Below are positions 7,892 to 34,417 of a stretch of DNA of 37,692 bases, one piece after another. Origin of the DNA: Candidatus Thorarchaeota archaeon (lineage in GTDB: Archaea > Asgardarchaeota > Thorarchaeia > Thorarchaeales > Thorarchaeaceae); contig JAGXOC010000011.1 in NCBI GenBank assembly GCA_019894665.1, positions 1-37,692 of the forward strand, in the 5' to 3' direction. A model generated the notes under the pieces. The model was not told the origin of the DNA, ran no database searches, and saw only the letters and a program-made list of their open reading frames with translations. Positions within the stretch are counted from its first letter, which is position 1; the number at the start of each line of letters is the position of its first letter. The position numbers and the translations under genes were made by a program.

Positions 7892-8014
7892 CTCGTTCCT
7901 CTCCGACTAGCTCGCATAAGGTAGTTTCGTTTCACCGTTGACCGTTCGTTCGTGTCCTCAAAACAGCTGCTCAAAGGGGGACCCTTAAAACGGGGCCATG
8001 CAAGTTCGGTGTTG

Positions 8015-8800
8015 GTGAAATCACCTTTGGCCAGCGAGAAGATTGTGGCAGTTGAATGCATAGACGTACGTCGCGAATTTCAGGACGGTTCACGAGTCAT
8101 CAAAGTACTACAAGGCACCAATCTAAAGGTCGATAGAGGTGAGTTTGTGGCCATAGTCGGCGCTTCTGGTTCCGGAAAGACCACTCTTCTCAATCTTATT
8201 GGAGGCCTAGACCAACCGACTTCTGGAACAATCCTCGTTGATGGTGAGAACATTACCGAGCTTAATGATGAAAAAATGTCTGAGGTCCGACGTCACAAAA
8301 TTGGGGTTCTATTCCAGGACCAGCACCTTCTACCCATCTTTACGGCCCTTGAGAACGTTGAGGTCCCCATGCTTCTTGATGATGTTCCAGAAAAAGAGCG
8401 GAGAGAACGAGCAACAAAGCTCCTAGAAACTGTCTTTGTAGATCACAGATCACAGCACATGCCCCACGAACTGTCTGGGGGGATGCGTTCACGTGTTGCT
8501 CTTGCTAGATCTCTTGCTAACGATCCTGCCATTTTATTGTGTGATGAGCCCACCGGGGATCTAGATCATACGACCGGTGGAGAGATTATCCAACTGATGA
8601 GAAACCTTGCCAAGAACAAGAATCTTGCAGTACTAGCAGCAACACACGATCCTGAAACTGCTCGGATGGCCGACAGGATTCTCCTTCTCAGGGATGGTGT
8701 TCTGGTTGATGAGCTTGTGGGTGACTTTTTCAAGCACAGCAAGGTCGATGTGAGTACAAAAGACCGCGGAGGAGAGATTGGCGAAAGAACGTCTACCTAG
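8015..8800 (+). CDS. ABC transporter ATP-binding protein (LolD/MacB type)
   Basis: Nucleotide-binding subunit of the type VII (MacB/LolD/FtsE-like) ABC class, about 261 aa from the GTG at 8015. Walker A is GASGSGKTT, the Q-loop is FQDQHLLP, the signature is LSGGMRSRVALA, Walker B is ILLCDEPTGDLD and the switch His is in ATHD. A CTTAAAA box A-like element at 7984-7990 lies 26-28 bp upstream of this GTG, favouring it over an in-frame GTG at 7952. It is the first gene of an ATPase-permease-permease-ATPase cassette. It probably powers the FtsX-type permease at 8812, whose start is 11 bp past its stop. Confidence 0.9.
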   Translation: MKSPLASEKIVAVECIDVRREFQDGSRVIKVLQGTNLKVDRGEFVAIVGASGSGKTTLLNLIGGLDQPTSGTILVDGENITELNDEKMSEVRRHKIGVLFQDQHLLPIFTALENVEVPMLLDDVPEKERRERATKLLETVFVDHRSQHMPHELSGGMRSRVALARSLANDPAILLCDEPTGDLDHTTGGEIIQLMRNLAKNKNLAVLAATHDPETARMADRILLLRDGVLVDELVGDFFKHSKVDVSTKDRGGEIGERTST

Positions 8801-8811
8801 GAGTGATCTAA

Positions 8812-11709
8812 GTGGGCGCGCCAAAGAAATCAAAGAAATTCAAGACAAAAGGCAACAAAGCATACGGTCTCTCTTATGCCATCAGTGCACTCAGGGCAAA
8901 TCCATTCAGAGCCATAAGCCTCGCCCTTACGTTGAGCCTAGGTATCAGTCTCTTTGCGTCCACAATGGTGTGGGGCGATACAGGTATTTTTGTGAGTATC
9001 CATGAGTATCTTGAAGACAATTCGTATCAGATTGTAGTGGACTCAGAACCCGGCGTTCCTGAAGCCCTTGGAATGGCTGAGGCATATATGGACCAGAGCC
9101 AATTCGTAGAGGAAACCTATCGTATCAACTCTACAGTGGGCTTGGTCTGGGGGACGAATATTTCCGACAGTACGCATTATGACATAGATGATCCAGTTTA
9201 CAGCCACGGGATAAAGGATTGTAGAGTCGTATTCGTGGATAATGAGTTTCTGAACAAGACTGCTTTCGAGTTTGCGATTGAAGGAACCTTCGAACTTAGT
9301 GAGAATGAGATCATAGTATCTCGAACGTTTATTTTTTATGTGGAGCATGTCTTTAATCTCACTCTTCAGTTAGATGACGTAATAGATGTTGAACTACTGA
9401 CTGGGGATACCACAGTTCTACCCGCACCATTGAGTATGCTGGGTCGCATGAGCAAGACCGATCTCAGGATTGTTGGCATCTTTACCCCCCGTACCTTTAA
9501 CTCAATCATCGAACGTGCTCTTCCATCATATGAGGATGGGCGTGCCAATTGGAACCACACAAACCTGCGTTATGAAGTGATGGGACTTCGAGATAGCATC
9601 TTGATGCGCGCCGATTCAATTCCTGCGGGTGCGCTCTCAGAGGATGGGTTCTTCAGCGAGACAATGCTAGTCAGAGTTTCAGCAGATGCACTAGCCACAG
9701 ATGGTCCACAGAATGTGGCGACTAATCTCTTTGAGTTGACCATTCGGACCGACGAGTTATACAACATCACATGGGCGGGTCATGATCAAATCTGGGAGCT
9801 CCAAGGTGTTGTCGATACCTATGTTTCAACTTTGGACCTTTCTATTCTCGCTCTGCCAATTATCCTTCTAGCACTGTTCTTCTCTATATTTGCTGCTGAC
9901 ACTTTTATGGCACCTCGCAATGTTGAGGTCGGTATCATTAGGTCCAAGGGTGCAAGTTACTCCCAAGTATCATCTATATTCCTGTGGGAATCCGCGGTGA
10001 TAGCCACGCTTTCAGTAGGACTTGGAATTCTGTTCAGTGTGCTCTTTGCACCATTAATCCCGTCAACTACAAGTTTCATGACCTTTGACTGGGCTGTCTA
10101 CGGATTCTACCTATCAAATACGGTTGTCAGTTTCAACACAATCATTCGAGCTATCAGTCTTACTGTTGTTCCCAGTCTATTATTCATCCTATATTTAGCA
10201 AGGAGAGCCGCTTCAACTGAAATCAGTCTTACACTGGCCGAAGTGACTGAGAGCGCGACCGAACAATCAGAAGCACATGGTTTCACAATTGGCGCATCAA
10301 TCTTCCTTCTGGCACTGGTTGTTGTAATGATGTATATTCTCCCCAAACACCCAATTCTATTCTTGATGGAACTTGGAATGGGGACTGCTGCTTGGTTCTT
10401 CATAGCTTACAACGGGTCAAGGATCTCTCGAATTGGCCTGGCAAAGGTTTCAAAGAAACTATCGTTTCTGTTGGGTCAGAAGAATTTGATATCCGCAGGG
10501 TATCTGAAGATGCGAAAAGGCCGAATCATCCCGCTCATGGTTGTTCTTGCTCTCACAATGTCTTCAACAATAGCATTTGCGGTACAATCAGAGAGTCTCA
10601 GAGTTGACCTAAATCGCGAGGTCAGCTATGCCTTAGGTTCTGACCTCCGTGTGGATTGTACTATTCGTGAATTCAACTTCAGTTACGACCTAGAGGTCTA
10701 TGATGGTATCAGCAACGCGATGCCCGTCTTGAGTACATGGGCACGACTTGGTCCTGATGAGCTGAGTATCGAAGCGATATATCCCCTTGAATATGCATCG
10801 ATAGGAAAGTTCGATCAATCAAGCTTTAGCGGTGAATCACCAGATAGTGTTCTATCAGCACTGGCAGCAGTGCCCAATGGTATAATCTTGAGTGAATATC
10901 ACGCAGACCGATGGAATAAGACCGCTGGTGACACACTCAATCTGGAGATGACTGGAGTTGGCACAACACAAATCGTTGAATTCGAAGTCGTTGGATTAGT
11001 GTTTAGTGCACCAGGATTTGGTTATGCATCAGTTACTGATGTGCCCTACTCTGTTCTTGGAGCTGGGTTTGGATTCAGCTCTGGTTATGAAGGATTTGCG
11101 CTAACTAACCTTGAGTTTGTTGAAGGTGTCACTGAGGAACTCGAAACTACACTCTTCATGGTGGATCTCGATGATAATGCTAATCGAACACTCCTACTTG
11201 AGGAGCTTTCAGCTTTACCCGGAATTATTCCCAACACTCCAGAAGAGTTCGATCTGAAAGAACACTCTCTTCGAACAGCATTATTCTTGAACACAATAGA
11301 GGGTCTCTTCTCAATTGGTTTCGTGATGTCACTGACTCTCAGTGTATTCGCTCTATCAATATCTCTGGGATCCGTTGTGAGAGAGCGTCGCAAAGAATAC
11401 GCAGTCATGCGTGCAATTGGAGGGTCCAAACGGCAAATCGTTAGCATGGTATTCTCAGAGTTTACAGGAGTAGTACTAGCATCCTTGGCACTGAGTCTGA
11501 TTCTAGGCGTGATCTTTGGGTATGTCATGGGCTTCTTACTAAATGCTATGGCTCCATTCTCCCGAACTCTGTCAGCAACCATTGCATTCCCAGTTAATTT
11601 CCTTGCAATTGTTCTGTTCATTGAAATAATGACTATGGTTATCGGGGCATACTTGCCTGCAAGAGAAGCAGCAAGGACCGACCCCGCTGTTGTACTAAGA
11701 AATATGTGA
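8812..11709 (+). CDS. FtsX-type ABC permease (first paralogue)
   Basis: A 965-aa membrane protein of the FtsX/MacB permease superfamily with about ten transmembrane helices. An N-terminal helix is at about residues 33-52 (LALTLSLGISLFAST), followed by a large extracytoplasmic domain of about 290 residues. Helices then occur at about 344-366, 390-412 and 440-460 and again near 487-535 and 590-610. A second extracytoplasmic domain of about 220 residues follows, then three C-terminal helices (about 832-860, 885-915, 926-950) and the typical end RTDPAVVLRNM. The duplicated FtsX core fits a ten-helix lipoprotein/lipid or peptide exporter. Start GTG 8812 follows AGGAGTGAT. The substrate is unknown. 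Confidence 0.88.
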   Translation: MGAPKKSKKFKTKGNKAYGLSYAISALRANPFRAISLALTLSLGISLFASTMVWGDTGIFVSIHEYLEDNSYQIVVDSEPGVPEALGMAEAYMDQSQFVEETYRINSTVGLVWGTNISDSTHYDIDDPVYSHGIKDCRVVFVDNEFLNKTAFEFAIEGTFELSENEIIVSRTFIFYVEHVFNLTLQLDDVIDVELLTGDTTVLPAPLSMLGRMSKTDLRIVGIFTPRTFNSIIERALPSYEDGRANWNHTNLRYEVMGLRDSILMRADSIPAGALSEDGFFSETMLVRVSADALATDGPQNVATNLFELTIRTDELYNITWAGHDQIWELQGVVDTYVSTLDLSILALPIILLALFFSIFAADTFMAPRNVEVGIIRSKGASYSQVSSIFLWESAVIATLSVGLGILFSVLFAPLIPSTTSFMTFDWAVYGFYLSNTVVSFNTIIRAISLTVVPSLLFILYLARRAASTEISLTLAEVTESATEQSEAHGFTIGASIFLLALVVVMMYILPKHPILFLMELGMGTAAWFFIAYNGSRISRIGLAKVSKKLSFLLGQKNLISAGYLKMRKGRIIPLMVVLALTMSSTIAFAVQSESLRVDLNREVSYALGSDLRVDCTIREFNFSYDLEVYDGISNAMPVLSTWARLGPDELSIEAIYPLEYASIGKFDQSSFSGESPDSVLSALAAVPNGIILSEYHADRWNKTAGDTLNLEMTGVGTTQIVEFEVVGLVFSAPGFGYASVTDVPYSVLGAGFGFSSGYEGFALTNLEFVEGVTEELETTLFMVDLDDNANRTLLLEELSALPGIIPNTPEEFDLKEHSLRTALFLNTIEGLFSIGFVMSLTLSVFALSISLGSVVRERRKEYAVMRAIGGSKRQIVSMVFSEFTGVVLASLALSLILGVIFGYVMGFLLNAMAPFSRTLSATIAFPVNFLAIVLFIEIMTMVIGAYLPAREAARTDPAVVLRNM

Positions 11710-11718
11710 GGTGATAAG

Positions 11719-14643
11719 ATGGCCAAGAAAAAACAGAAGAAAATCCTGAAGGGCAACCCGCTCTGGTCAATTGGTTATGCCATCACCTCGATGAAGACCT
11801 ACAAGGTCCGCAATGTTGGCATTGCCTTAATCCTTGCAATCAGTGTGGCAATCCCAACGACTATCTTTGCATGGACAAACACAGGCTCTCGCTTGGCCGT
11901 TGAGACATATTTTGATGACAACTCCTACCAATTCAGTATTCAGAACACTGCAGGAGCCCTCGATTACTCACACCTCTTTGACGCACAGGATCTTGTAATG
12001 AGCAGTCCCTTCGCTGAGTATGCACATATCACTCCCAGCACTGTGGGAATATACCGGATGGATGGAGTCACACCTGAGTGGGATGCGTATTCCACTATCG
12101 GTCAAAACTATGCTGAGGGTATCAAAGACTGTAGGGTTATCATCGTTGACAATGAGATTCTAAATGTTTGGTCCAACGATCTTGATTTCACAGGAAATTC
12201 AACACTAAGTCCCGGTGAGGTTATAATATCCCAGCGATTTATCGAACTTGCAGAGGATATGATGGACCGAACCCTCGGTGTTGACATAGACCTCGTTGTT
12301 GGTTCAGAGATCAGCGTAGATGTTCTTCGCACTTTCTATTCACCTGCTGAAGGAAGACCTTTTGACCCATTATTGCTCAATCGTCTGATTGTACGAAATC
12401 TCACAATCGCAGGTATCTATGACGTAGTGCAAGCATCTGTTGTTGTAGAGTCATTCTCATCCCTGTCCCGAGCGAACTATGATCCCTTAGGAATTGCTAC
12501 CAGTGTCCTGGGCATAACTGACTCAGTTTTGATGTTAGCTGATGAGCTTGGTGCAGAATCTGTTGAAACAATCACCACCAGAGGGTTCTTTTCCCCTGTC
12601 GAATTTGTACGCGGGTCTGTTGATGGCCTCGTACAAAGTGGAGTGACAAATGCTGCACAAAATCTCCTAAATCTGAAGACACAGATAGAAGAGAGCGATG
12701 AGATTCTGAATGTGATTGGTCTAGACAATGTCGACAGTCTACAGACCCATATCACAACCTATCTTCAAAGTCAAGTATTGATCATCTTGGCTTTGCCCAT
12801 TATGATTATGAGCCTGATGCTCACAATCTTTACATCAGAGACCTCCGTGTCACAAAGAAAAGGTGAGATCAGTGCGCTTCGTGCAAAAGGAGCGTCATTC
12901 AACCAGATATTTGCTGCATTCATCTGGGAGTCCTTAATTCTCTCTATACTTGGCCTGTTAGCTGGACTGCTTCTTACTATATTTGCTGCTCCTTTGATGG
13001 GGTCATCAACCGGCCTCTTGTCATTTGATCAAGTTCTGTATAGTGATTTCATATCAAAAATGACCATTCCAATACAAGCACTTGCCTTGTCCGCGGTTAT
13101 CGCATTGTTCCTTCCTGCAGCTTATCTGTTGCATGTTGCTCGTAGAATCGACGTTGCAGAGATTGGACAACCCACCATGCGAATGACCTATGAGATACCT
13201 GAGGAAACCAACATCTGGTTCTATGCCTTGGCTCTAGGTGGTACACTAGCAGCGCTTCTCATAATGCCAGTTATGTTCAACCCAGCTGGCCAGACAGCGT
13301 ACATTGAGATACTCATAGCAACAATGATACTATTCCTTTCATCATATCTTGGGTCACGAGCCATGCGACTAGTCACCGCCAGTGTGTCTGAGAGAGTTGG
13401 TGGTCTATTGGGTGAGAAGAAACTGTATCTGACTCAGAGTCTACGGAGGAGAAAGGGACAGTTCATTCCACTCCTTGTGATTCTGACCTTGACTCTTACG
13501 ACAACCACAATGATGCTCATTCAGACTGCAAGTTTCGAGGACACACTTCAGAACGAGGCGAATTACTCAATAGGTTGTGACATTCGCATTCAGGTTCCGG
13601 AACACACATTGGATTGGGTTGACGCTCTTGAAGGATATGGAGGAGTCACTGGTGCAACTCCTGTCATCGAAACATTGTCATATATTGGAACTGAAGCCTT
13701 CTATCTTGAAGGGTTAGATGCTGAAGTGTATAGCACAATAGGGGACTTCAAGTCATCGAGTTTCGTAAGTGGAACTCCTGAGGAGGTTCTGACAGCCCTC
13801 GAGAATACCGCGAATGGAATCATCATAAGCGAGTTCTATTCCGAACTCTGGAATGTCACTATAGGCGATCCATTGGCGATTAGGGTTACTGCAGAAAGTG
13901 GTGCTACCCTCACCGGGTTCGAAATCGTTGGTTTTATGAAAAGCGCACCTGGATTCGGAATGGCGTCAGCTCATGACCTTGAGGGTATCCCCTTCGGATC
14001 ATACTTTGACTTCCAACCTGGTCGAGGAGGTTTTGCATTAGTCAATATCGATTACCTGTCTATAAGAACCGGATTCAATACGACTAGGGTCTTCTTTGTC
14101 GGAACAACCTCCCTTGAAGATGCATCTACTCTGATTGACTTTGCAAACGATATTCCATATTCTGAAGTTTACACCCCTGACAGCATCGAGTTTGGTTCAG
14201 ACACTGCCACGGGTCTCTTCTTGGCCGGTATTGAAGGACTCACAATGATTGCCTTCATCATGTGTGCAGCCATGGGAATTGCATCAATTGCCCTATTCCT
14301 GAGTTCTGCAGTAATGGAGCGCGAACCAGAATATGCGTTGTTCCGCGCGATTGGTGGGACCAAGAGACAAGTGATCTCTCTTGTGTTTGGCGAGTTTGCC
14401 GGGAGTGTTCTTGCTGCTGTGCTAATCAGTCTAGGCCTTGGAGTGCTATTTGGCATTACAATGACACTATTGACATTTGGAATATCATCAGTGTGGCCAA
14501 TTCTGGCGAAGATATTGACCTTTCCGTTGATCGTCATGGTCTCCACTGTGGCACTGGAATGTGTCGCTATGATTTTTGCGTGTTACTTCCCTGCTAAAAG
14601 GGCTGGTAGCACAAATCCGGCTGAAGTATTGAGAAATATGTGA
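11719..14643 (+). CDS. FtsX-type ABC permease (second paralogue)
   Basis: A 974-aa paralogue of the preceding permease, with the same plan: an N-terminal helix after LKGNPLWSIGYAI, a large outer domain, a mid helical bundle from about 350, a second outer domain, and three C-terminal helices ending STNPAEVLRNM. The conserved DNSYQ after the first helix and the KGAS/F and AIGGTKRQ/AIGGSKRQ loops are shared by both proteins, so the pair arose by tandem duplication and then diverged widely. The ATG at 11719 follows GAGGTGATAAG, a near-perfect ribosome-binding site 9 bp after the first permease's stop. The two may form a heterodimer or two separate transporters. Confidence 0.88.
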   Translation: MAKKKQKKILKGNPLWSIGYAITSMKTYKVRNVGIALILAISVAIPTTIFAWTNTGSRLAVETYFDDNSYQFSIQNTAGALDYSHLFDAQDLVMSSPFAEYAHITPSTVGIYRMDGVTPEWDAYSTIGQNYAEGIKDCRVIIVDNEILNVWSNDLDFTGNSTLSPGEVIISQRFIELAEDMMDRTLGVDIDLVVGSEISVDVLRTFYSPAEGRPFDPLLLNRLIVRNLTIAGIYDVVQASVVVESFSSLSRANYDPLGIATSVLGITDSVLMLADELGAESVETITTRGFFSPVEFVRGSVDGLVQSGVTNAAQNLLNLKTQIEESDEILNVIGLDNVDSLQTHITTYLQSQVLIILALPIMIMSLMLTIFTSETSVSQRKGEISALRAKGASFNQIFAAFIWESLILSILGLLAGLLLTIFAAPLMGSSTGLLSFDQVLYSDFISKMTIPIQALALSAVIALFLPAAYLLHVARRIDVAEIGQPTMRMTYEIPEETNIWFYALALGGTLAALLIMPVMFNPAGQTAYIEILIATMILFLSSYLGSRAMRLVTASVSERVGGLLGEKKLYLTQSLRRRKGQFIPLLVILTLTLTTTTMMLIQTASFEDTLQNEANYSIGCDIRIQVPEHTLDWVDALEGYGGVTGATPVIETLSYIGTEAFYLEGLDAEVYSTIGDFKSSSFVSGTPEEVLTALENTANGIIISEFYSELWNVTIGDPLAIRVTAESGATLTGFEIVGFMKSAPGFGMASAHDLEGIPFGSYFDFQPGRGGFALVNIDYLSIRTGFNTTRVFFVGTTSLEDASTLIDFANDIPYSEVYTPDSIEFGSDTATGLFLAGIEGLTMIAFIMCAAMGIASIALFLSSAVMEREPEYALFRAIGGTKRQVISLVFGEFAGSVLAAVLISLGLGVLFGITMTLLTFGISSVWPILAKILTFPLIVMVSTVALECVAMIFACYFPAKRAGSTNPAEVLRNM

Positions 14644-14653
14644 GGTAGTTGAA

Positions 14654-15685
14654 ATGAATACAACTGTAGAAACAAAAGACGAACTTGACCTGTACAGTGA
14701 ACTGCCAGACGATGTAGTTGTCAGCGTCAATGACTGTTACAAGATCTACAAAGCACAAGAACTGGAGGTTGTCGCCCTTAGCGGGGTCTCTCTTCAGATT
14801 CTTGAAGGCAAGATTATGGCCGTTGTAGGTCCAAGCGGGTCCGGTAAGACCACTCTGATCAACGTGATTGGTGGTATCACCAAGGCGACAGTCGGTAAGG
14901 TCTATTGGGCTAATCTACGAACTGACATCACGAAACTGAGCGAGAGGGTTCTTACAGAAGCCAGACGTAACTTCATCGGGTTCCACTTCCAACTGAACAA
15001 CCTACTACCTCATCTCAATGCATGGCAGAATGTGGAGCTTGCTGCAAGAATTGCTGGCGTACCTCGACAGATCCGGAAGGACAGAGTCGACCGACTCATC
15101 AAAATGGTCGGCCTCGAAGAACGGAAGCGTAACAAGGCCACAACCCTCAGCGGCGGTGAGAAGTCACGAGTAGCGATTGCTAGTGCTCTTGTCAACCTCA
15201 TTGACACAGAAGGGAAGGGACTCGTACTTTGTGATGAGCCCACAGGGGATCTTGATCCCGAAACTGGTGAGCGAATACTTGACCTGTTCCAGGAGCTGAA
15301 CGAGACCATTGGGACATCGTTCTTCATAGTCACTCACAGTCAACAGGTAGCATCAAAGGCGGACGTGACAGTCGAGCTCCGAGATGGAGTCATCTCTGGT
15401 TTCCATCAAGCCGGTATTGACCTAGACAGGCTAGGTACTACACGCATCGTAAGGTTGGACGACAAACACAGACTCCCAATGCCTACTGACCTGCTCGATC
15501 TTGCTGGTAGCCCACGAGAGTTCAGACTCAGCTATGCCGACGACAAGTTCATACTTGTACCTCAGACTGGCGACGTTGTTGACCAGATGCGTGAGAAGAA
15601 AGCAAGGGTTTGCAGAGTCTGTGGTTCAGATATTCCTGGTGGAAAGTTCATCTGTTCCAACTGTGGGAGTCAGGTCACAGTATAG
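14654..15685 (+). CDS. ABC ATPase with C-terminal zinc ribbon
   Basis: Nucleotide-binding subunit of the MacB/LolD class, 343 aa, about 100 residues longer than usual. Walker A is GPSGSGKTT (59-67), the Q-loop is HFQLNNLLPH, the signature is LSGGEKSRVAIA (from 165), Walker B is LVLCDEPTGDLD and the switch His228 is in VTHSQ. After the ATPase core comes a linker of about 80 residues and a zinc ribbon with Cys320, Cys323, Cys334 and Cys337 (CRVCG, CSNCG). A ribbon on an ABC ATPase of this class is unusual and suggests a zinc-dependent docking or sensing role. It closes the cassette, 10 bp after the second permease. Confidence 0.9.
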   Translation: MNTTVETKDELDLYSELPDDVVVSVNDCYKIYKAQELEVVALSGVSLQILEGKIMAVVGPSGSGKTTLINVIGGITKATVGKVYWANLRTDITKLSERVLTEARRNFIGFHFQLNNLLPHLNAWQNVELAARIAGVPRQIRKDRVDRLIKMVGLEERKRNKATTLSGGEKSRVAIASALVNLIDTEGKGLVLCDEPTGDLDPETGERILDLFQELNETIGTSFFIVTHSQQVASKADVTVELRDGVISGFHQAGIDLDRLGTTRIVRLDDKHRLPMPTDLLDLAGSPREFRLSYADDKFILVPQTGDVVDQMREKKARVCRVCGSDIPGGKFICSNCGSQVTV

Positions 15686-33910: not shown

Positions 33911-33988
33911 GGGGCCGTAGTCTAGCCTGGATAAGGCACCAGCCTCCGGAGTTGGTAATCCCCGGTTCAAATCCGGGCGGTCCCGCCA
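33911..33988 (+). tRNA. tRNA-Arg (anticodon CCG)
   Basis: A 78-nt tRNA including encoded CCA. The acceptor stem GGGGCCG pairs with CGGTCCC (one G-U), discriminator is G, D-stem GTCT/AGGC with A20 (an Arg identity base), anticodon stem CCAGC/GTTGG, loop CTCCGGA with anticodon CCG at 33946-33948, and T-arm CCCGG-TTCAAAT-CCGGG. It reads CGG codons. It is almost identical to the tRNA at 34340. Confidence 0.97.
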
Positions 33989-34339: not shown

Positions 34340-34417
34340 GGGGCCGTAGTCTAGCCTGGATAAGGCACCAGCCTGCGGAGTTGGTAATCCCCGGTTCGAA
34401 TCCGGGCGGTCCCGCCA
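34340..34417 (+). tRNA. tRNA-Arg (anticodon GCG)
   Basis: A 78-nt tRNA with encoded CCA and the same stems as the tRNA at 33911. Only two bases differ: anticodon base 34 is G (GCG, 34375-34377), and one T-loop base is G (TTCGAAT). It reads CGC and, by wobble, CGU. Together the two cover part of the CGN box. Confidence 0.97.

Follow-up and report, generated by a model that had tools for sequence, protein, structure and literature searches.

What does a locus that brings together two different ABC ATPases and two related permeases encode: two transporters that happen to share an operon, or one machine? The question is raised by four neighboring genes in a 37,692-nucleotide stretch of Candidatus Thorarchaeota archaeon DNA (GenBank assembly GCA_019894665.1, contig JAGXOC010000011.1; hereafter the window). 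A preliminary description had read them as a tandem duplication of an FtsX-type permease lying between two different MacB/LolD-class ATPases, on one strand and with gaps of 9 to 11 bp, and this reading is borne out by the open reading frames (ORFs), by Pfam and NCBIfam searches and by the 33% identity of the two permeases. The interpretation we favor, with a probability of roughly 60%, is that the product of the cassette is an ABC machine of type VII (MacB/LolCDE/YbbAP-like) in which a heterodimeric motor of the two ATPases is shared, in Thorarchaeota, by the two permeases.

Organization of the cassette

The four genes, named A1, P1, P2 and A2 in their order on the plus strand, are separated by 11, 9 and 10 bp in the ORF list. 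Their positions in the window and those of the domains discussed below are as follows.

7952-8800, plus strand: A1, short LolD/MacB-class ABC ATPase (ORF, Pfam ABC_tran; the start may be 8012-8015)
8812-11709, plus strand: P1, ten-helix permease with two FtsX halves and two outer domains (ORF, Pfam, AlphaFold)
9025-9777, plus strand: P1 outer domain 1, residues 72-322 (AlphaFold model)
9916-9945, plus strand: P1 putative coupling helix 1, residues 369-378, between TM2 and TM3 (AlphaFold model; role by analogy)
10639-11265, plus strand: P1 outer domain 2, residues 610-818 (AlphaFold model)
11389-11418, plus strand: P1 putative coupling helix 2, residues 860-869, between TM8 and TM9 (AlphaFold model; role by analogy)
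11719-14643, plus strand: P2, paralogue of P1 with the same domain plan (ORF, Pfam, 33% full-length identity)
14654-15685, plus strand: A2, tailed LolD/MacB-class ABC ATPase (ORF, Pfam, NCBIfam, motifs)
15443-15565, plus strand: probable AbrB/MraZ-like hairpin segment of A2, residues ~264-304 (weak profile matches)
15611-15664, plus strand: zinc ribbon of A2, CxxC...CxxC, residues 320-337 (four invariant cysteines)

The encoded proteins have 282 (A1, counted from the first GTG), 965 (P1), 974 (P2) and 343 (A2) amino acids. Position 8015, where A1 had previously been taken to begin, is an internal GTG of the 7952-8800 ORF, and a start near 8012-8015 is plausible, judging from the N-termini of relatives. 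Each of the three intergenic gaps contains a purine-rich stretch resembling a ribosome site. The P1/P2 junction (11699-11712) and the P2/A2 junction (14633-14646) have 14 bases in common, GAAATATGTGAGGT, with the stop codon inside. This repeat may have been left by the tandem duplication; at both junctions it also resembles the ribosome site of the following gene. An Rfam scan returned two tRNAs and nothing else (tRNA-Arg genes with anticodons CCG and GCG at window positions 33911-33988 and 34340-34417, about 350 bp apart).

The permeases

Pfam finds two FtsX stretches in each permease (P1 2.4e-19, P2 3.8e-18), and the two proteins align from end to end. The AlphaFold model of P1 (pLDDT 83.6, pTM 0.75) has ten membrane helices and two outer domains, in the order TM1, outer domain 1, TM2-4, TM5-6, TM7, outer domain 2, TM8-10, so that an outer domain lies between helices 1 and 2 of each FtsX half, as in type VII systems. 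P2 would, by homology, likewise have ten helices and two outer domains; the ten-helix permeases proposed in the preliminary description are thus supported by a model for P1 and by homology for P2.

The solved chain closest to the P1 model is YbbP (Foldseek E 1.2e-19; VIA Z 22.5, rmsd 9.6, 579 residues). BceB is a second structural match (7tch_A, VIA Z 20.4), and the halves of the model match MacB and LolE structures. On the curated NCBIfam models, scores were far lower than the cut-offs: 26.1 bits for P1 on the YbbP model (cut-off 999), with P2 absent from its matches; 40.6 for P1 and 54.1 for P2 on ADOP (TIGR03434, cut-off 622.3 bits); and 37.9 and 31.9 bits, respectively, on LolC/E (cut-off 362.45).

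The outer domains had been thought to differ greatly between the two permeases. Mean P1-P2 identity is 31.5% and 35.0% in these domains, 26.8% in TM3-4 and 26.3% in the TM5-6 linker, and special divergence of the outer domains was rejected since identity there is not below that of the rest of the protein.

Few parts of P1 and P2 are as well conserved between the two as the putative coupling-helix stretches, with mean identities of 59.8% and 54.3% against about 33% overall. Of the 36 invariant columns in a 60-row permease alignment, five fall within P1 residues 367-382 and three within residues 859-872. We count the conservation of the coupling helices between P1 and P2 in favor of a shared A1-A2 motor.

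The ATPases and the tail of A2

Both ATPases match Pfam ABC_tran (A1 3.9e-37, A2 3.3e-25). The top NCBIfam models are LolD, MacB and DevA for A1 and LolD and MacB for A2, all under their equivalog cut-offs (on the LolD model, with a cut-off of 307.75 bits, A1 scores 246.2 and A2 177.6). By these closest models both belong to the LolD/MacB class found in type VII systems, which probably upholds the earlier suggestion of an ATPase class that works by mechanotransmission. A1 of the window has Walker A, the LSGGM signature, Walker B and the H-loop, and the motifs of A2 are complete too and invariant in 29 of 29 rows. Six A1 relatives picked up by a regular expression also have complete motifs, though these make six rows only. 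The possibility that one ATPase is degenerate was rejected on the motifs of window A1 and A2 and the 29 A2 rows. A2 is the best-conserved protein of the cassette, at 91-94% within the genus versus 64-79% for P1.

The C-terminal residues 320-337 of A2 are, by sequence, a zinc ribbon; its four cysteines are invariant in 29/29 and 25/25 rows, and Pfam ribbon scores on window A2 are below their cut-offs. Residues ~264-304 probably form an AbrB-like hairpin. Profile matches of this stretch range from E 0.014 to 1.4 (AbrB 0.039-0.056, MraZ 0.016-0.13, MazE 1.4), and an NCBIfam MraZ match occurs in 7 of 25 A2-tail rows. No AbrB/MraZ-type Pfam family was found on the A2 tail or among the 25 families listed for 15 tails, and A2 was not among the matches when its own genome was searched with PF04014. 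An AlphaFold model of A2 built from 29 rows (pLDDT 55) was too poor to confirm the hairpin.

Comparison with known type VII systems

The system that most resembles the cassette in its permease is YbbAP of E. coli, in which YbbP is described as binding two YbbA subunits and the YbbAP:TesA complex as having a 2:1:1 composition (PMC12646458; PDB 9ge6/9ge7). In both, two FtsX halves are fused in one chain to give a ten-helix permease, with outer domains between TM1-2 and TM7-8 (in the model for P1, by homology for P2), and the LolD-class ATPases have separate genes. They differ in that YbbAP, as reported, combines two copies of one ATPase type with one permease, whereas the cassette has two ATPase types and two permeases, and in that a tail like that of A2 is no part of YbbA as described there (PMC12646458). 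BceAB also pairs a ten-helix permease with a separate ATPase, but BceB is described with one outer domain, at TM7-TM8, and BceA as homodimeric (PMC5985334, PMC11466899), while the P1 model has two such domains. With LolCDE and MacB the cassette shares the nearest NCBIfam ATPase models, at scores below the curated cut-offs, and the structural matches of the P1 halves to MacB and LolE; the permease units of these systems have four helices, with LolC and LolE as separate chains, unlike the ten-helix P1.

In a table of eight B. subtilis type VII systems, each of the seven rows considered gives one ATPase type (PMC11466899). Two unlike ATPases therefore set the cassette apart from type VII systems as these accounts describe them, which use one ATPase type. 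MacB-type ABC3 systems have been surveyed in Asgard genomes, where they are mostly uncharacterised, and the survey, in the text available, makes no mention of two ATPases per permease or of a tail (PMC7997004). A literature search that covered few subscription papers and no preprints returned no account of a type VII motor built from two ATPases and none of an ABC ATPase carrying a tail of this kind.

Conservation of the cassette in Thorarchaeota

A search with P1 gave matches in 40 of 59 genomes, 36 of which belong to the Thorarchaeota family (f1). A 60-row permease profile matched at E 1e-60 or better in 45 of the 47 f1 genomes, the two without a match at this threshold being G036 and G222, and in 89 of the 227 genomes of the phylum. 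A scan of named genomes, with 64 loci, returned Thorarchaeota, Hermodarchaeota, a few Lokiarchaeota or sequences named only 'archaeon', and two weak Bifidobacteriaceae matches.

Thirty Thorarchaeota loci were compared, drawn from 29 of the 44 other f1 genomes with a profile match; negative gaps in these loci arise from the choice of the first start codon. A1-P1-P2-A2 is present in the same order and on the same strand in 24 of the 30, which makes the arrangement more than chance. The remaining six are consistent as far as they go: five are cut by contig ends (L060, L063, L064, L066, L067) and in L065 P1 is broken. The four-gene order that the preliminary description had proposed to seek in other archaeal genomes is thus conserved, and was found in the Thorarchaeota family only. 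In many of loci L049-L062, A2 is preceded by a wider gap of 59-146 bp (918 bp in L059), which counts against A1 and A2 acting as a pair. Flanking genes are also kept in place in many loci (primase large subunit, OGG-like glycosylase and MobB-like; Toprim, alcohol dehydrogenase and OsmC-like), so that shared position alone speaks for descent rather than function.

Two further neighbors were seen in some of these genomes. On the A1 side lies a gene for a secreted-looking protein of about 665 amino acids with TSP3 repeats (L050:10904-12928), in many cases followed by another, related gene; homologues are present in L049, L051-L055, L057-L059, L061, L062 and L162. Directly downstream of A2, in 8 of the 47 f1 genomes (G016, G020, G021, G022, G025, G031, G032, G035), is a gene for a membrane-anchored alpha/beta hydrolase (L054:11499-13313, L062:11060-12874, L050, L051, L052, L055, L126; G020:C273:12455-14242). 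It is on the strand of A2 and starts no more than about 65 bp from the tail match. The product has about 604-654 amino acids: a hydrophobic stretch at the N-terminus is followed by an alpha/beta hydrolase region and then by further hydrophobic stretches at the C-terminus. The hydrolase is encoded elsewhere in eight more f1 genomes, and 31, including that of the window, have no match at E 1e-15. Its position parallels that of TesA, the esterase partner of YbbAP, and may be taken as a lead, and no more, to a role in lipid handling.

Two ATPases preceded two permeases

In Hermodarchaeota a single permease stands between the two ATPases. The order A1-P-A2 was found on five contigs (L121, where A2 is cut, L125, L127, L129 and L137), two of which, L127 and L129, have an additional permease, P', right behind A2 (A1-P-A2-P'). 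In permease trees, one of them of 25 rows, P1, P2 and the Thorarchaeota orphan permeases form one clade and the Hermodarchaeota permeases another. Constrained trees joining P1 with the Hermodarchaeota P (p 1.1e-66) or P2 with P' (p 2.6e-8) were rejected. In the ATPase tree, A1 joins the Hermodarchaeota A1 at 96/92 and A2 joins the Hermodarchaeota A2 at 92/76 only. Patchwork gene conversion was considered as a cause of the P1/P2 grouping and rejected: whether the tree is built from the whole protein, from either outer domain or from either membrane half, five column sets in all, P1 and P2 come out as a single clade. The two Hermodarchaeota permease sets do not form one clade when the N-half membrane columns are used.

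Taken together, the Hermodarchaeota order, the permease clades and the ATPase joins indicate that the earlier arrangement had a single permease between two ATPases and that Thorarchaeota and Hermodarchaeota each gained an extra permease separately. By these trees, the P1/P2 split postdates the split between Thorarchaeota and Hermodarchaeota, and the doubled permease gene is a later addition in Thorarchaeota. The symmetry of the four genes is thus a lineage-specific duplication.

This history bears on the view that the operon encodes two transporters, with an A1-A1 dimer driving P1 and an A2-A2 dimer driving P2. Such an arrangement would fit a gene order that sets each permease beside one ATPase, as A1-P1-P2-A2 does and as A1-P-A2-P' of L127 and L129 does likewise, and the ATPases of solved relatives are described as homodimeric (PMC12646458, PMC11466899). 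However, two ATPases accompany a single permease in Hermodarchaeota (L137, L121) and, among the matches listed, in 31 of 75 other loci described below, and since the permease duplications were independent in the two lineages, neither created the second ATPase. We therefore consider two transporters unlikely. For the same reason, and because each permease has two FtsX halves and YbbP is described as binding two ATPase subunits (PMC12646458), the suggestion in the preliminary description of one ATPase for each permease is not favored. Its other suggestion, one heteromeric system, is probably correct: the two-ATPase state predates P1 and P2, and a single permease is found with both ATPases in several Asgard families.

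Short and tailed ATPases in other Asgard families

At E 0.001, a profile of the A2 tail matched in 164 of 227 genomes; many of the weak matches cover a zinc ribbon only. The loci considered outside families f1 and f9 number 75; they comprise the 74 matches listed with E values no higher than 1e-6 and a further one at 1.8e-5. Among the matches listed, 31 of the 75 have a short ATPase, one permease and a tailed ATPase together, and 29 of these 31 trios are ordered short-permease-tailed on one strand (L194 and L152 are arranged otherwise), which counts for a pair. The trios are not independent, with 19 in f18, 7 in f20, 3 in f27 and 2 in f15. A permease and a tailed ATPase were also found, among the matches listed, in seven loci where the permease is partial or reaches an end and in two with no short ATPase seen; four of the 75 lie at a locus edge and one was not recovered.

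In 30 of the 75, among the matches listed, no FtsX permease lies within 400 bp of the tailed ATPase, which counts against a pair. Nineteen of these are in f18 and ten in f22; the last is L151, where the short ATPase, permease and tailed ATPase lie inside about 7 kb. In the f22 loci L191-L193, a permease and a short ATPase are about 5-6 kb off with Opp-type genes between. Four f18 tailed ATPases without an FtsX permease (L183, L184, L185, L188) lie beside small membrane proteins that have no Pfam match.

These solitary tailed ATPases, the likeness of the tail to families of transcription regulators and the wider gap before A2 in many Thorarchaeota loci are what might be expected if an A1-A1 motor served both permeases and A2 were a soluble ATPase with a regulatory role, its tail binding nucleic acid or protein. 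Nevertheless, A2 is a complete LolD-class ATPase and the most conserved protein of the cassette, and in the trios the tailed ATPase follows the permease within about 12 bp; a purely regulatory A2 is very unlikely.

The preliminary description had held that ATPase-permease pairs standing alone elsewhere, with no co-occurrence, would speak against one machine. Lone pairs were indeed seen in f18, where the matching short ATPase and permease lack an adjoining tailed ATPase in 7 of 7 loci with both sides visible (L153 is cut after the permease), a point in favor of two transporters; a tailed ATPase of matching subtype is encoded elsewhere in those genomes.

When 57 ATPase domains were compared with the tails left out, one branch (99/97) separated 28 of 28 short from 29 of 29 tailed ATPases, and both sides of the tree show Thorarchaeota plus Hermodarchaeota, f18 plus f22, f20 and trio sets. 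Over 25 pairs, the distances among short ATPases correlate with those among tailed ones (r 0.783); of 5000 free shuffles and 5000 within-family shuffles, none gave a value as high. The nearest partner in another family agrees by family and type for 17 of the 25. Three pairs match yet lie on different contigs (G079, G061, G112), and in G109 the two genes are about 5 kb apart. Linked genes are inherited jointly, so a match between the trees is expected and is weak evidence for contact. Pairs of unlike ATPases do, on these comparisons, recur in several Asgard lineages.

A second cassette and orphan permeases

The same genome carries a second, distantly related cassette with the same layout, B1-Q1-Q2-B2 (G000:C333; L075:4576-11873, minus strand), whose Q permeases are 21-23% identical to P2/P1. 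It is kept in other f1 genomes and complete in 14 of 20 fetched loci (L164-L171, L175-L178, L180, L181). B2, too, has an AbrB-like segment at its end but no zinc ribbon; its tail matches MraZ (2.4e-4) and MazE (0.0056), each below its cut-off, and hhalign of the A2 and B2 tails gives E 4.3e-4 yet a probability of 34%. Because of a long-branch warning for Q1/Q2, their join in the permease tree is not interpreted, and B2, with a similar warning, joins A2 at 89/75 only.

Extra Q1-Q2 pairs lie behind B2 in L169, L170 and L181, and with no ATPase seen beside them in L182 and L179 (L179 is cut). Single P-type ten-helix permeases with no ATPase in view were found in Thorarchaeota (L070, L071, L072, L122, L130) and Hermodarchaeota (L069, L131). 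Permeases standing without an ATPase count against a pair; the extra Q1-Q2 pairs and the orphans together suggest that several permeases may share motors.

The constancy of the doubled permease raises the further idea that P1-A1-A2 and P2-A1-A2 are joined through the A2 tails, with the two permeases moving in step. None of the 24 uncut loci with an intact P1 (of 30) has lost the tandem, the second cassette also keeps two permeases in 14 of 20 loci, and extra Q permeases come as Q1-Q2 pairs in L169, L170, L179, L181 and L182; AbrB hairpins, moreover, dimerise. But the hairpin assignment in A2 is weak, tails are equally present at loci with a single permease, and the orphan P-type permeases are single, so we hold such a joined assembly to be quite unlikely. 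The same low expectation applies to a broader proposal, an Asgard class of type VII machines with an obligate motor of unlike ATPases and an AbrB-like plus zinc-ribbon sensor tail, in which the Thorarchaeota permeases would be yoked by the tails into one symmetrical machine with two outer-face tasks and one regulated motor.

Proposed mechanism

In the favored interpretation, an A1-A2 motor shared by two permeases, the basic unit would consist of a single ten-helix permease, its two FtsX halves unequal, with an A1-A2 pair bound on the cytoplasmic side. The topology of P1 is like that of YbbP, and by analogy with YbbP and its two YbbA subunits such a permease would need two ATPases. The A1-A2 sandwich would close on ATP binding, and the movement would be relayed by the two putative coupling helices to the two outer domains. 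These may open and close so as to lift or hand over a ligand on the outer face, with no pumping through a pore; the ligand may be a lipid, a lipoprotein or another lipophilic molecule. There may also be two ligands, as the preliminary description had suggested. Since it is the middle gene that was duplicated in Thorarchaeota, the most likely outcome is two alternative complexes, one with P1 and one with P2, that have one A1-A2 motor in common. In A2, the probable hairpin and the zinc ribbon would lie in the cytoplasm and probably serve in pairing or regulation.

Implications

If this interpretation is correct, the two unlike ATPases would allow the role of each ATP site to be tested by changing one gene, and a two-ATPase class would reveal how each half of such a machine is driven. 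The arrangement is present in several families of Asgard archaea, relatives of eukaryotes with a little-known surface biology, and the tail of A2 suggests that a machine of their surface may be under direct cytoplasmic control.
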